From positions 124,001 to 188,000 of the forward strand of contig JAGAAX010000052.1 of assembly GCA_017614995.1 (NCBI GenBank): a DNA stretch of 64,000 nt. Direction: 5' to 3'. The stretch is from Spirochaetaceae bacterium. Its GTDB lineage: Bacteria; Spirochaetota; Spirochaetia; Treponematales; Treponemataceae. Each line of letters begins with the position of its first letter. The stretch's first letter is position 1. The position numbers were made by a program, and so were the translations under genes. Under the pieces are notes generated by a model. It made no database searches and was not told where the DNA came from. It saw only the letters and a program-made list of their open reading frames with translations. This document shows positions 2,717 through 55,080 of the stretch, piece after piece.

Positions 2717-2748
2717 AAAAGCAGAAAACTGTTATGCTTTCTGCTTTT
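2717..2748. terminator. Bidirectional terminator between the HD gene and tmRNA
   Basis: AAAAAGCAGAAA pairs with TTTCTGCTTTTT around a short loop. It has A/T runs on both sides, so it can serve both the plus-strand HD gene and the convergent minus-strand tmRNA. Confidence 0.8.
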
Positions 2749-3098
2749 TGGAGATGGGGAGAATTGAACTCCCGTCCGAGTGAGCGGACCAAGAGCGTCT
2801 ACAAGTTTAGCAGTGCGAGGTGGTTGTCGGGAAACGGTAGCAGCACCGCAAGCGTCGTCTCCGTATTCTGGTAAATGTCCTTGAAGCGTACCAGACACCG
2901 TTTCAAGCAAGCTCTGTTTAGCGTCGGGCTTTCAGACCGCTCAGAGCAGTGCAGTCTGAAGCCCGCGATTATGCAGCAAGTGCGTAGTCGTAAGAATTGT
3001 CAGAATTGGCAATTATAGTTTTTGTCTGTTCAGAGGACAGGCAGCCTCACTTGCAGCCCAAGGCCACGAATCACACCCGTCGAAACCAGTGCACCCCC
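2749..3098 (-). ncRNA. ssrA: tmRNA (ssrA), proteolysis tag ANSDNSYDYALAA
   Basis: Transfer-messenger RNA rescues stalled ribosomes and adds a degradation tag. On the minus strand the 5' end GGGGGTGCACTGGTTTCGACGG and the 3' end with T-arm GGAGTTCAATTCTCC and acceptor CATCTCC form the tRNA-like domain; GGGGGUG pairs with CAUCUCC including G-U pairs. CCA is not encoded. The tag frame runs from 3010 down to 2972 and encodes ANSDNSYDYALAA, followed by TAA at 2971-2969. The ALAA end is the standard ClpXP/ClpAP-type degron. The tag resembles treponemal tags from memory. Both a promoter and a terminator are visible. Confidence 0.96.
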
Positions 3099-3175: not shown

Positions 3176-3256
3176 AAAGGCTGCCGGTTTTGCTTGGCAA
3201 AAGCGGCACTTTTCGCAGATTAATCTTCATCTGAAGTATAACTGATGCGAAAAGAA
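3176..3256. repeat. Dispersed two-hairpin repeat, family A, copy 1
   Basis: A GCTGCCGGTTTTGC arm pairs with GCAAAAGCGGC, and a second GCACTTTTCGC arm pairs with GCGAAAAG at about 3248. The same module recurs at about 7815, 8018, 8194, 23935, 26665 (reverse orientation) and 55005. It fills the gap between tmRNA and the HD gene. Confidence 0.7.
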
Positions 3257-8309: not shown

Positions 8310-9281
8310 TTACTGATAGAACTTATTTTTTGATTCGGTTTTGTCACAAACCTTTTCTTCGGCAAGCTGCTGTACTATTTCTATCGGAAGTCCAGTACAA
8401 TCAGATATATCTTCAAATGAGAGCAGATGCTTTTCTATAAGTTTCCGAGCTGCTTCAAGTTTAGCGCGTTCTTCACCCCTTGTTTCTCCGATGGCGATAC
8501 CTTCAGATTTGGCAGCGCTTAAGCCTGAACGGTAGTCGCGTTCAAACATTTCTTGTCTGAACTGCTCAACCCATAAGTCTTGGTTTGCACTTATCGAAGA
8601 AAGTGACTGTTTTGCGTTCATAAGTCCTGCCTCCGTTTCAGTTAGTTTCTCAATGACCTTTGTTTTCTTAGGATTATCAGCTTCTTTCAAGAAAATCGCC
8701 CAGTTCTCTAAAGCTGTGTTCTTCTCAATGCTTTTCTCAAGCTTGGTGACTTTGGGTAGCTCAATAAAAATGATATTGAGCGTATCAGAAAGCTCTCGAT
8801 TGTCAGTCGTGCGCATCGCATAGCGGCTGACCGCATCATTTGTGCTTTTGTCAAACACAAAATCTAACACCGTAATCTGATAAACTTTCGGAGCTTTTTC
8901 CCAAGTATCGCCTTTCTTGAGATAAGTCGTTTCTAGCCTTGCAACCTGATATTCGGCTCTTTTTCCATAATCATAAAATTGATTAAACGCCATCATTTCA
9001 AGATTTGCAGGCTGTCCGTCGTCAAAAATGCACAGAATATCATAGCTCACACCGCGCTGCTTTTCAAAAGCTATGGGTGCTTCATTCGCTGTTAGCTCTA
9101 CTGACTTAATCTTCCGCTCTGTGGCAGCTTCCAAAAACGAGTGCAGTGCGTTCCGCGATTCCGCTGTCGGCTGTGTGAATAGTGCCTTAAAAGTCGAATC
9201 TATGCGCGGATTAAGCAGCGCACCCTGTTTCATCTGTGCAAGATATTCTTCTTCGCTTAAGAATTTGTTGTTCTGTTTCAT
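8310..9281 (-). CDS. Rpn-family PD-(D/E)XK nuclease / putative transposase
   Basis: The family (RpnA-like, PDDEXK) contains recombination-promoting nucleases often annotated as transposases. Recognisable parts are LLNPRIDSTFKALF near the N-terminus, the nuclease core GVSYDILCIFDDGQPANLEMM, the YQVARLETTY helix, and the C-terminal tail GIAIGETRGEERAKLEAARKL typical of these proteins. The usual E-x-Q/K of the core reads E-M-M here, so activity is uncertain. I take the ATG at 9281; a TTG at 9308 is possible but its AGGA lies only 2 nt away. No terminal inverted repeats flank the gene. The tandem repeat array lies just past its 3' end. Confidence 0.85.
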   Translation of the reverse strand: MKQNNKFLSEEEYLAQMKQGALLNPRIDSTFKALFTQPTAESRNALHSFLEAATERKIKSVELTANEAPIAFEKQRGVSYDILCIFDDGQPANLEMMAFNQFYDYGKRAEYQVARLETTYLKKGDTWEKAPKVYQITVLDFVFDKSTNDAVSRYAMRTTDNRELSDTLNIIFIELPKVTKLEKSIEKNTALENWAIFLKEADNPKKTKVIEKLTETEAGLMNAKQSLSSISANQDLWVEQFRQEMFERDYRSGLSAAKSEGIAIGETRGEERAKLEAARKLIEKHLLSFEDISDCTGLPIEIVQQLAEEKVCDKTESKNKFYQ

Positions 9282-9369
9282 ATTATAATATATTGATTCA
9301 GAATGCAAATTCCTGTACCAATTTGCGAATTTTCTTACAGATTTTACAAAATTTACAGAAATTAAAAAC

Positions 9370-15467: not shown

Positions 15468-15794
15468 GAGCTTTTCAAAGATTGCCGGGTTTGCGATTGG
15501 GCTTTATCTACAAACTAAGCTCAATCGGCAAACCCTGCAAGATTCCGCTTCGCGTAATCTTGTAACTTATGCACAATGGGTGCTTGTTTTGGGCTGATGC
15601 ACAAAGGCTGAGGGCGCGGAGTGCGGTTCAAAAACATTTTGTTTGTTGCGTCGCGAAGCGACAAGTATATAGTTTCCATGCAACAAACAACATGTAGCGC
15701 ATTATTGCGCGGTTTTGAACCGTGCTTCGCAACCGAAAGCATATGTACATGAACCCGGTTTGCTAATCTAAAGCTTTTATGCTATATTCACCAC
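15468..15794. repeat. Repeat-filled gap: hairpin modules plus family B palindrome, copy 1
   Basis: From the left: a long hairpin GGGTTTGCGATTG/CAATCGGCAAACCC (about 15488-15535), the hairpin CAAGATT/AATCTTG followed by TAAC, then at 15621-15725 a nested palindrome. The palindrome has an outer GGTTCAAAA/TTTTGAACC, a middle TTTGTTG/CAACAAA, and inner hairpins GTCGC-GAA-GCGAC and GCGCA-TTAT-TGCGC. No protein gene is credible here. The pncB start follows. Confidence 0.85.
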
Positions 15795-19374: not shown

Positions 19375-19878
19375 ATGGAAATATTAGGTCTTTACGAAAT
19401 AGATTCCTCTTATATAAACTTTCTCGCAAGTTTTGAACAACATTTATTCAGAAACAAAAAGGTTACGCAGATATTTTCAAGAAAGTATGTAGGAATTGTT
19501 CTCAAAATTAATGATTTTGATTATTTTGCTCCGCTTTCTTCATTTAAAGAAAAACATAAGCGATTAACTGAAACTGTAGATTTTATTAAACTTGGTACAT
19601 ATTCTGTAATAAATTTGAACAATATGTTTCCTGCTCCTATTTCTATTTGTAAACAGGTTGATATATTGAATTTGCAAGATGTTCACTACAAAAATCTTGT
19701 CCGCGCAGAATATCGTATAATCCGACAGAAATCACAATTGATAGTGGAAAATGCGAAATCTGTTTATCATCACAAATTGGTAAATGACGGTAAATCAAAA
19801 TTAAGCCAGCGCTGTAATGATTTTAAATTGCTGGAAGAAAAATGCAGCGAATGGATTAAAACGAGAAAAAAAAGCTGA
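19375..19878 (+). CDS. toxN: Type III toxin, ToxN/AbiQ-family endoribonuclease
   Basis: 167 residues, the usual length for the family. Segments that match ToxN from memory: KYVGIVLKINDFDYFAPLSS (residues 37-56) with the catalytic-region SSFKEKH (S55, S56, K58; ToxN has T-S-x-K), VINLNNMFPAP, a long basic helix YKNLVRAEYRIIRQKS, and the end FKLLEEKCSEW. The enzyme cuts RNA and is held inactive by the pseudoknot RNA; such loci act in phage abortive infection and maintenance. The ATG sits directly on the terminator U-tract with no ribosome site, which should keep expression very low. AT-rich, suggesting transfer. Confidence 0.85.
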   Translation: MEILGLYEIDSSYINFLASFEQHLFRNKKVTQIFSRKYVGIVLKINDFDYFAPLSSFKEKHKRLTETVDFIKLGTYSVINLNNMFPAPISICKQVDILNLQDVHYKNLVRAEYRIIRQKSQLIVENAKSVYHHKLVNDGKSKLSQRCNDFKLLEEKCSEWIKTRKKS

Positions 19879-23309: not shown

Positions 23310-24184
23310 GATACTCTATGTTATTAAAGGTCAACAATTTAGTCAACCGGGGGCGCGTTTGGGTTTTGGAAAAAATTTTAAGATTCTTATGCGCCCCCTG
23401 CAAGTTTCCTTTCAGGAAACTTGTAAATTATGTACAATGTCCGCTCACTGCGAGCGTGCAAGGCGCCCCCTACAAGTTTCGGGGTTGCGATTGGGATAAA
23501 TCTACAGACTTAGCTTAATCGGCAACCCCTGCAACTTTCGCGCTTACGCGCAAAACTTTTAACTGGTGCACAAATGTTGCTTTTTGGGGTGTATGTACAA
23601 AGGCGCAAGGGAGTTGAATGGGGTTCGAAAATGCTCTGTTTGTTGTGTCGCAAAGCGACATGTCTATAGTTTCCATACAACAAACAGTGCATAGCGCATT
23701 ATTGCGCGGTTTTGAACCCCGTTCAGCGACCGGGAGCATCTGTACGTGAACTTCGAAGCAAGATTTTCGTGTCAAGTATGCGAATGACACAAAGGCTGAA
23801 ATGCTCCGCAACCGCGTTTCGCCTTTGGTTTTATCTACGGTTTAGAGTTAATCTAGCGAAACGGCCAAGTTTCCGCTGCGCGAAAACTTGAAAGACTTGT
23901 ACATCGTCTGCTTTTGTGTGCGTATGTACATTAGCTGCCGGTTTTTGTGTAAACAAAAAGCGGCGCTTTTCGCCGATTGGACTTTGTTCATGGATTGGGC
24001 TATTGCGAAAAGAAAAAGAAAAGGCCGGTTACGCACCGGCCATGCCCATCAGGCAGTCGGACAAACAATGGGTGGGAGGGGATTTGTTTGTCCGACAAAT
24101 TTATTATCGGCCGAAACAGCAAATTCCTTTACCATTGTTTTTTTCACATTGTTGATTGTTTATGCTTTCTAAGCAGACTATGTA
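23310..24184. repeat. Repeat-rich gap between PBP and the LRR lipoprotein
   Basis: From the left: GGGGGCGC/GCGCCCCC arms near 23349 and 23390, the hairpin CAAGTTTCCT/AGGAAACTTG (about 23400-23423), a long GGGGTTGCGATT/AATCGGCAACCCC hairpin (about 23470-23530), family B palindrome copy 2 (23619-23721), a family A copy (about 23935-24012), the hairpin GGCCGGT/ACCGGCC (24023-24041), and a 13-bp-arm inverted repeat at 24056-24096. Open frames here track the repeats and are not credible genes. Confidence 0.85.
24056..24096. repeat. Perfect 13-bp inverted repeat with G-rich loop
   Basis: GTCGGACAAACAA (24056-24068) and TTGTTTGTCCGAC (24084-24096) are exact reverse complements around a 15-nt loop with runs GGG, GGG and GGGG. 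It could be a termination or regulatory structure upstream of the lipoprotein promoter. Confidence 0.85.
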
Positions 24185-26579: not shown

Positions 26580-26912
26580 TGGGCTTATAGCTTTTCGGGT
26601 GCGCAATGCAGGCTCTTTTTGGCTTGTGCACAGCGTTCCCGGATTGCTTCTTTTTGCAATCTTTTCGCATCAGCCTAATCTACGGATAAAGTCTATTCGG
26701 CGAAAAGCGTCGCTTTTGCTTACGCAAAACCGGCAGTTTATGTACAGGGGCTGCTCTGTTGGAGATTACTGTGTCGAAAGGGCGGTGGAGTGCGGTTCAA
26801 AAATGCCCTGTTTGTTGCCGTCGCGAAAGCGACGTATTTATAGTTTCCATACAACAAACAGTGCATAGCGCATTATTGCGCGGTTTTGAACTGTGCTCCG
26901 CAACCGTTAGAC
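26580..26912. repeat. Repeat gap: inverted family A copy and family B palindrome, copy 3
   Basis: At about 26663-26745 a family A module lies in reverse orientation (TTTTCGC, then CGAAAAGCG and TTTTGC/GCAAAAC). At 26790-26895 is the third family B palindrome, sharing with the other copies the block ATACAACAAACAGTGCATAG and the GCGCATTATTGCGC hairpin. It separates the convergent LRR lipoprotein and PEGA genes; the family B copy could act as terminator for either. Confidence 0.8.
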
Positions 26913-30376: not shown

Positions 30377-30385
30377 CGCAAGACG

Positions 30386-30471
30386 AAAAGGGGAGCTGGT
30401 GTAAGCCGGCTGAGAGTAGGAGTTTCCTTTACCCGTAGAACCTGTTTGGATAATTCCAGCGTAGGGATATA
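30386..30471 (+). promoter_or_regulatory. TPP riboswitch (THI element)
   Basis: The conserved blocks are present: GGGGAGCTGG, GCTGAGAGTAGG, ACCCGTAGAACCTG and GGATAATTCCAGCGTAGGGA. They form the aptamer that binds thiamine pyrophosphate and turns thiC off when thiamine is plentiful. It lies about 60 bp before the thiC start. Confidence 0.95.
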
Positions 30472-30532
30472 AATAATTACTTTCTTGTAATTTTTGTACG
30501 ACTTTTGACGCGGAATTTACAAGGAAGAAAAA

Positions 30533-54966: not shown

Positions 54967-55003
54967 CCCCGCCAGCTTGATAAAGCTATTGCGAAAAGAG
55001 GGC

Positions 55004-55080
55004 TGCCGGTTTTGCTCTGCAAAAGTGGCACTTTTCGCCGAATAAACTCAAGTCGTAGATTGGACTATTGCGAAAAGAAA
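55004..55080. repeat. Family A repeat between the two tRNA-Val genes
   Basis: GGCTGCCGGTTTTGC...GCAAAAGTGGC and CACTTTTCGCC...TTGCGAAAAG repeat the family A module. Copy 2 of the tRNA promoter (TTGACA at 55086) begins directly after it. Confidence 0.75.

Follow-up and report, generated by a model that had tools for sequence, protein, structure and literature searches.

The copies in the window

The window, by which we mean the whole 64,000-nt stretch of DNA analysed here, contains 3 copies of a repeat that share 77-81% pairwise identity over about 137 nt (Table 1). Copy 1 lies between an ORF without identification and a nicotinate phosphoribosyltransferase gene, by which the nearest named relatives are uncultured Spirochaetales/Treponema MAGs. 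Copy 2, embedded in an array of other hairpin units, has a PBP1-type gene on one side and an LRR gene on the other, and copy 3 is flanked by an LRR gene and a PEGA-domain gene. With copy 1 as the query, copies 3 and 2 were matched at E values of 1e-31 and 2e-27, respectively, and the next-best match elsewhere in the window had an E value of 0.08; because of this gap, the likeness of the 3 copies is not due to chance.

A sequence-only reading of the window had described these copies as nested palindromes of about 105 bp, located at 15621-15725, 23619-23721 and 26790-26895 and bounded by 9-bp outer arms. We found all 3 copies, with their arms, at these positions, and the nested palindrome is real, but the element delimited by the covariance model is about 137 nt long and its outer arm measures 18 bp. 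The GGGG/CCCC arm of copy 2, which had been called partly compensated, is a genuine compensation. A hairpin that had been taken to be fixed, GCGCATTATTGCGC, is constant in the 3 window copies but not family-wide: elsewhere the letters differ, being mostly GCGCGTTATCGCGC, GCGCGATATCGCGC, GCGCAATATTGCGC or GCGCGCTAGCGCGC, and all of these still pair.

Other features observed in the window include a tmRNA gene at 2746-3098 (- strand), a ToxN-type toxin gene of a type III toxin-antitoxin system at 19375-19878 (+ strand) and a TPP riboswitch at 30379-30484 (+ strand).

Table 1. Positions of the element, of its parts in copy 1 and of adjacent family A units in the window
Feature	Position	Strand	Basis
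Copy 1	15606-15741	+	covariance-model extent; BLAST and covariance-model matches; fold z -7.6
Copy 2	23602-23738	+	covariance-model extent; BLAST and covariance-model matches; fold
Copy 3	26773-26912	+	covariance-model extent; BLAST and covariance-model matches; fold
Copy 1, P1 outer stem, 5' arm	15616-15633	+	arm match, covariation
Copy 1, P1 outer stem, 3' arm	15713-15730	+	arm match, covariation
Copy 1, P2 5' arm (TTTGTTTGTTG part)	15634-15648	+	fold, covariation
Copy 1, P2 3' arm (CAACAAACAACATGT)	15681-15695	+	fold, covariation
Copy 1, P3 hairpin GTCGC-GAA-GCGAC	15650-15662	+	sequence; pairs covary family-wide
Copy 1, conserved unpaired block ATAGTTTC	15669-15676	+	alignment
Copy 1, P4 hairpin GCGCATTATTGCGC (insertion hot-spot in other copies)	15697-15710	+	fold, covariation
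Family A unit adjoining copy 1	15488-15563	+	sequence match
Family A unit upstream of copy 2	23480-23564	+	sequence match
Family A unit downstream of copy 2	23811-23892	+	sequence match
Inverted family A unit at the close of the copy-2 array	23931-24018	-	sequence match
Family A unit upstream of copy 3	26659-26740	+	sequence match

Fold and covariation

On the + strand, an 18-bp stem, P1, encloses a long arm P2/P3, an unpaired stretch containing ATAGTTTC and a GCGC hairpin, P4, which in most copies is GCGCnTTAnGCGC. P2 comprises 14 pairs with one mismatch and is capped by hairpin P3; outside P1 the model includes 2 short pairings, GGC/GCA-GCC and GG/CC. RNA folding of this strand of the 3 window copies gave -64 to -67 kcal/mol, with z values of -7.6 to -8.4. 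The unpaired ATAGTTTC was invariant in an alignment of 14 copies (A1) and nearly invariant across genera.

In alignment A1, 97.2% of the cells were paired, and double changes were observed in 11 of the 43 pairs. Alignment A3, which comprised 77 distinct copies across genera and was fitted to the covariance model, so that its counts lean toward the structure, had standard pairs in 96.7% of its cells and double changes in 33 of 47 pairs. The double-changed cells in A3 numbered 373, as compared with 89.5 +/- 10.3 in shuffles, a contrast that is inflated by the relatedness of the sequences, and with 16-41 in slid controls. These alignments show that one predicted fold has been kept across 3 genera by compensatory change, the letters themselves having changed. 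Most copies retain their arms, and where copies are broken the damage lies mainly at P4, through insertions or module exchange.

Strand preference

Wobble pairs were unevenly distributed between the 2 strands. Among 39 full copies, P1 contained 75 G·T and 5 A·C cells; over all pairs there were 115 G·T and 28 A·C cells in the window's own genus, where a single closing pair of P3 accounted for 14 of the 28 A·C cells. In the other genera the counts were 32 G·T and 1 A·C. A tandem wobble, 5'-UG-3'/3'-GU-5', which is a stable motif in RNA, was present in P1 of 25 of the 51 copies scored. The RNA fold energy of the window copies was about -65 kcal/mol on the + strand versus about -50 on the - strand, whereas as DNA the strands were nearly equal (-37/-39 on + and -33/-36 on -). 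Also, 23 copies were sense and 8 antisense to both neighbouring genes (p 0.011). Because the G·U wobbles are on the + strand, the fold of RNA but not of DNA is much stronger there and the sense orientation is commoner, we infer that the + strand is transcribed, probably for the most part by read-through from flanking genes, and that selection acts to maintain the RNA fold.

P2 behaved differently from P1 with respect to wobbles. In the 15 positions of its alignment, of which one is normally unpaired, we counted 842 Watson-Crick, 3 G·T and 5 A·C cells. This nearly pure Watson-Crick change may reflect correction of a palindrome at the DNA level as well as it may reflect selection on RNA.

Distribution of the element

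The core is 137 nt long, has no coding capacity and is dispersed between genes. BLAST searches of the window's own genome (G000) gave 21 matches, several of them half copies. Covariance-model searches gave 15 matches in G000, 14 in G001, 8 in G003 and 44 in G004; 3 of the matches listed were antisense matches to a place already matched. Four other congeners gave no match. Within the family, 71 of 195 genomes, belonging to 3 of 20 genera, carried the element; most of these fell in one large genus (g4) and often had many copies per genome, these copy numbers being lower bounds because at most 16 candidates were scored per genome. The carriers include a rumen Treponema sp. of the water buffalo (L076, JAFZRP010000054.1), in which the letters of the P4 stem differ and the fold is kept.

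We obtained no match to the element in phage and plasmid records. Viral contigs gave one exact 20-base match, which lay within an ORF and was without the fold, and which we regard as chance. The suggestion that the element belonged to no known family was upheld, in that no Rfam family was matched at gathering or relaxed thresholds, the matches below the gathering score being at chance level. The open-access papers searched on repeats or MITEs in Treponema contained nothing relevant.

Hairpin arrays and insertions at P4

The copies in the window lie in arrays of a second repeat, family A, of which there are about a dozen units in the window, as located by BLAST with many exemplars. Each unit comprises 2 hairpins, the first of which has a conserved loop on a stem that varies, and the units are arranged in inverted pairs. 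Modules have been exchanged between family A and the 137-nt element.

Several side observations concern family A itself. The stretches occupied by the family reach from 15486 to 15567 beside copy 1 and from 23480 to 24014 around copy 2. Further units lie at 3178-3256 and 54999-55079, and the segment 7643-8285 consists of 3 tandem composite repeats. The conserved loop is about TTAATCTACRGAATnnAGCTTAATC, and the stems covary strongly and are subfamily-specific; the inverted pairs surround TGTACA-rich linkers, so that family A resembles a BIME-like system of its own. Another hairpin family was seen in a congener without the 137-nt element, where 3 tandem repeats of about 105 bp (AAAGCCCGCAGTTTTGC..GCAAAACTGTGCGCCGTGCACAGACCAGC) lie upstream of an orthologous gene (G002, L218, 3520-3800).

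The P4 loop is a hot-spot for insertion of an insertion sequence (IS) and of other hairpin units. In one copy of G004 (L180, 1384-1700), a complete A..A' pair occupies the P4 loop, and the copy at the same place in G000 (L004) is uninterrupted. An IS with ends AACATCATCAACTTA has 9 of its 11 ends in G000 within P4, with a 9-bp duplication, AGCGC(A/G)TTA; one such insertion is bordered by L184 and L190, and G001 has its orthologous copy (L154) intact. The end of this IS was not found in viral contigs. We also noted that the right-hand junctions of L025 and L027 are similar to that of the L180 insertion, and that ends of the P4-targeting IS occur at contig ends of G000 (L019-L023, L026, L028 and L182-L192), where its interior is unassembled.

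Polymorphism in the window's genus

Judged by the orthologous places that we looked at, all 3 window copies are absent from close relatives, whose surrounding arrays differ as well, which blurs the exact empty sites. Copy 2 was missing in G001, G002, G003, G004 and G006; at this PBP1 locus G002 is without any array, and short arrays are found in G001, G003 and G004. At the copy-1 locus, G001 and G006 are without an array and the array of G004 holds a fragment of the element but no intact copy. Copy 3 was missing in G001, G003 and G006, and at its place in G001 a PDDEXK_2 gene lies between inverted repeats.

The 2 flanks of a given copy show more mutual pairing than swapped flanks do (p 2e-9), often through TGTACA. 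These flanking repeats are short and variable in the window's genus, the ends of the window copies are not sharp, and no target duplication was found in the flanks of copies in this genus.

Element ends in genus g4

The target duplications that had been proposed as a check, although not found in the window's genus, were present in g4. Here the core of one genome (G146) is contained in 215-bp units with terminal inverted repeats of about 20 bp (20-21 bp), CAGGGCTTCCGCATTATAAAA / TTTTATAATGCGGAAGCCCTG. Three of the 16 G146 copies have exact 10-bp target duplications, namely CTTTGTTATA (L302), CCGTGCGGAA (L307) and GCCCACCGCC (L309), and most others have none; a copy in another genome (L326) has an imperfect one. 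Repeats of the CAGGGCTTCCGCATTATAAAA type were found in G146, G192, G100 and others of the genus. These CAGGG ends and 10-bp duplications recall the ISAs1 family, whose elements have a CAGGG terminus, duplications of 8-10 bp and an ISAs1 transposase.

Other g4 copies carry the same core, its fold retained, between different inverted repeats: AGGGCAAACGCATTATAAAA in L336, GACAATGGTATTATAAA in L317 and L319, AAAAAATCTGATGCGC in L328, and GCACGGAAATCAGTTT in L076, the water buffalo carrier. What is conserved is thus the core and not the ends, which differ between genomes. It should be noted that target duplications were seen for the CAGGG-type ends only, and that the repeats of the other types are presumptive ends. 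As a separate observation, L316, L328 and L337 have an inverted repeat AAAAAATCTGAnG... outside the core; that of L316 encloses an inner, CAGGG-like repeat, which has the look of one mobile element captured by another.

Interpretation

We consider it probable that the element is a non-autonomous mobile repeat of the Treponemataceae, a MITE-like unit whose core of about 137 nt is a structured RNA. The sequence-only reading had left the choice between structured RNA and non-autonomous mobile element, and our observations support both halves together: the first through the double changes and the high proportion of paired cells in A3, the second through the 215-bp units with duplications in another genus and the absence of window copies from orthologous places. 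The core is dispersed between genes in many copies and is polymorphic between relatives; its location between terminal inverted repeats, with target duplications in some copies, was observed in g4 only. In the aggregate, the features expected of a MITE (short, non-coding and multicopy units, terminal inverted repeats and target duplications) were all found in g4, with polymorphism added by the window copies, and the covariation for one fold that is expected of a structured RNA was found with every control far lower.

Movement would occur in trans, by the cut-and-paste or copy-paste action of a DDE transposase, for which terminal repeats and target duplications are expected; this transposase would come from resident insertion sequences. 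The + strand would be transcribed, mostly by read-through, and the fold of the transcript would be under selection. In the window's genus, the core may have lost clear ends and would spread, or be shuffled, as a module inside hairpin arrays, where the P4 loop would be an insertion target.

A bolder form of this proposal, which we hold to be possible though doubtful, is that the RNA is itself the evolving unit: a selfish structured core that has been passed on across genera and has acquired unrelated transposon ends again and again. Possibly, such an RNA acts on the transposition machinery or on a host factor, by recruitment or by regulation.

The covariation, being strong and strand-specific, could also be read as that of a primarily regulatory RNA of untranslated regions, for example a target of RNase III or of an RNA-binding protein that sets mRNA stability, for which dispersal would be secondary. 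The sense bias and the UG/GU tandem wobble of P1 agree with such a role, and the unpaired ATAGTTTC and the P4 loop are putative binding sites. Yet copies occur in every orientation and at every distance to genes, even between convergent genes, their presence differs between close relatives, which is odd for an essential site, and we noticed no common gene function beside them. We judge this explanation unlikely.

The inverted pairs and mosaics of neighbouring family A units, which are as in BIMEs, recall palindromes of the REP/BIME/REPIN type, whose movement as single-stranded DNA depends on a Y1 (RAYT or IS200/IS605-like) transposase, and hairpins of single-stranded DNA also tolerate G·T in their stems. 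However, no Y1 transposase was found in the carriers G000 (95% complete), G001 and G003, and the retrieved flanks of the 2 Y1 genes in G002 and G004 are without a family A unit. The DNA fold differs little between the strands, and the terminal repeats with 10-bp duplications in g4 are unexpected for Y1 transposition; movement of this kind is very improbable.

Nuclease genes of the PD-(D/E)XK type (PDDEXK_2, or Rpn-like), of which there are 16 in G000, including one at 8310-9308 (- strand) of the window, lie beside hairpin arrays and might be supposed to spread them (loci L220-L269). These genes share conserved upstream sequence, and the end of the gene often coincides exactly with a hairpin. 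In G000 and G004 together, 17 of 26 such genes were within 300 bp of a hairpin unit versus 8 of 89 control genes (p 2e-8), the hairpin often begins right at the stop codon, and the gene between inverted repeats at the copy-3 locus of G001 stands where G000 has the element. The nearest units, however, are mostly family A and not the 137-nt element, G002, G005 and G007 have PDDEXK_2 genes and no copy of the element, and shared gene-poor insertion hot-spots would explain the association. Zhong et al. (PMC10327210) argue that Rpn proteins serve in toxin-antitoxin defence and that a transposase role is very unlikely for them. We give this possibility hardly any credence.

Least credible of all is that the repeats are passive palindromes, multiplied as DNA by recombination or replication slippage and with arms kept complementary by template-switch correction and not by selection on RNA. 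This would suit the joint change of the P2 arms, almost free of intermediates, and the free exchange of modules, but leaves unexplained why P1 wobbles are G·U only, why unpaired bases are conserved in 3 genera and why there are terminal repeats with target duplications.

Two further candidates were set aside. A reverse transcriptase (retron or similar) as driver was rejected because a search of G000 for PF00078, in which the controls worked, gave no match. Integron attC sites were weighed on anatomy only, namely the branched fold and the single scattered copies without a cassette array.

Comparison with known systems

The sole bacterial-RNA match overlapping the copy-2 array was a weak one to the TD-2 RNA of Rfam (RF03162), which scored 22 bits (E 1.2) against a gathering score of 48.7 and lies at 23345-23455, off the element. 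Correia/NEMIS and ERIC elements are short, palindromic, transcribed or foldable, intergenic repeats that have inverted repeats with target duplications. The Treponema element resembles them in being short, palindromic, foldable and intergenic, and in being bounded by inverted repeats with target duplications; it differs in sequence, host and terminal repeats, and has a branched core of 4 helices in place of one long hairpin. The BOX elements of Streptococcus pneumoniae are modular mosaic repeats that fold as RNA, from which the present element is set apart, by description, in that modules, ends and host differ.

Intergenic mosaic arrays of hairpins in alternating orientation are a property shared with REPs, REPINs and BIMEs, for which G·T pairs in stems have been noted too (PMC3733652, PMC3116915); unlike these, the element has no associated Y1 transposase, is a larger, branched unit and has target duplications in g4. 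Group A repeats of the Bacillus cereus group, bcr1 among them (Okstad 2004; Kristoffersen 2011), as they are described where PMC2267715 and PMC6542083 cite them, are likewise intergenic, about 100-200 bp long, present in tens of copies per genome, and endowed with features of mobile elements and a conserved stem-loop fold. The bcr repeats move with a TTTAT-type repeat, whereas the Treponema element in g4 has inverted repeats of about 20 bp and 10-bp duplications, and its core is kept between different terminal repeats in 3 genera; the likeness drawn here is one of kind.

The element is of a known kind, the MITE-like repeats, and stands out from those described by keeping a single putative RNA core while the ends around it change. 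With a branched fold, 33 covarying pairs and carriers in 71 of the 195 sampled genomes of the family, it is among the better-supported undescribed RNA folds obtained from sequence alone, and it occurs in Treponema of the gut and rumen, a group in which most of the intergenic DNA has yet to be characterised. P4, as the repeated landing site of an IS, is a natural example of a repeat that acts as a safe haven. The constancy of the core amid changing inverted repeats makes it testable whether the RNA folds of MITEs have a function or whether palindromes merely move easily.
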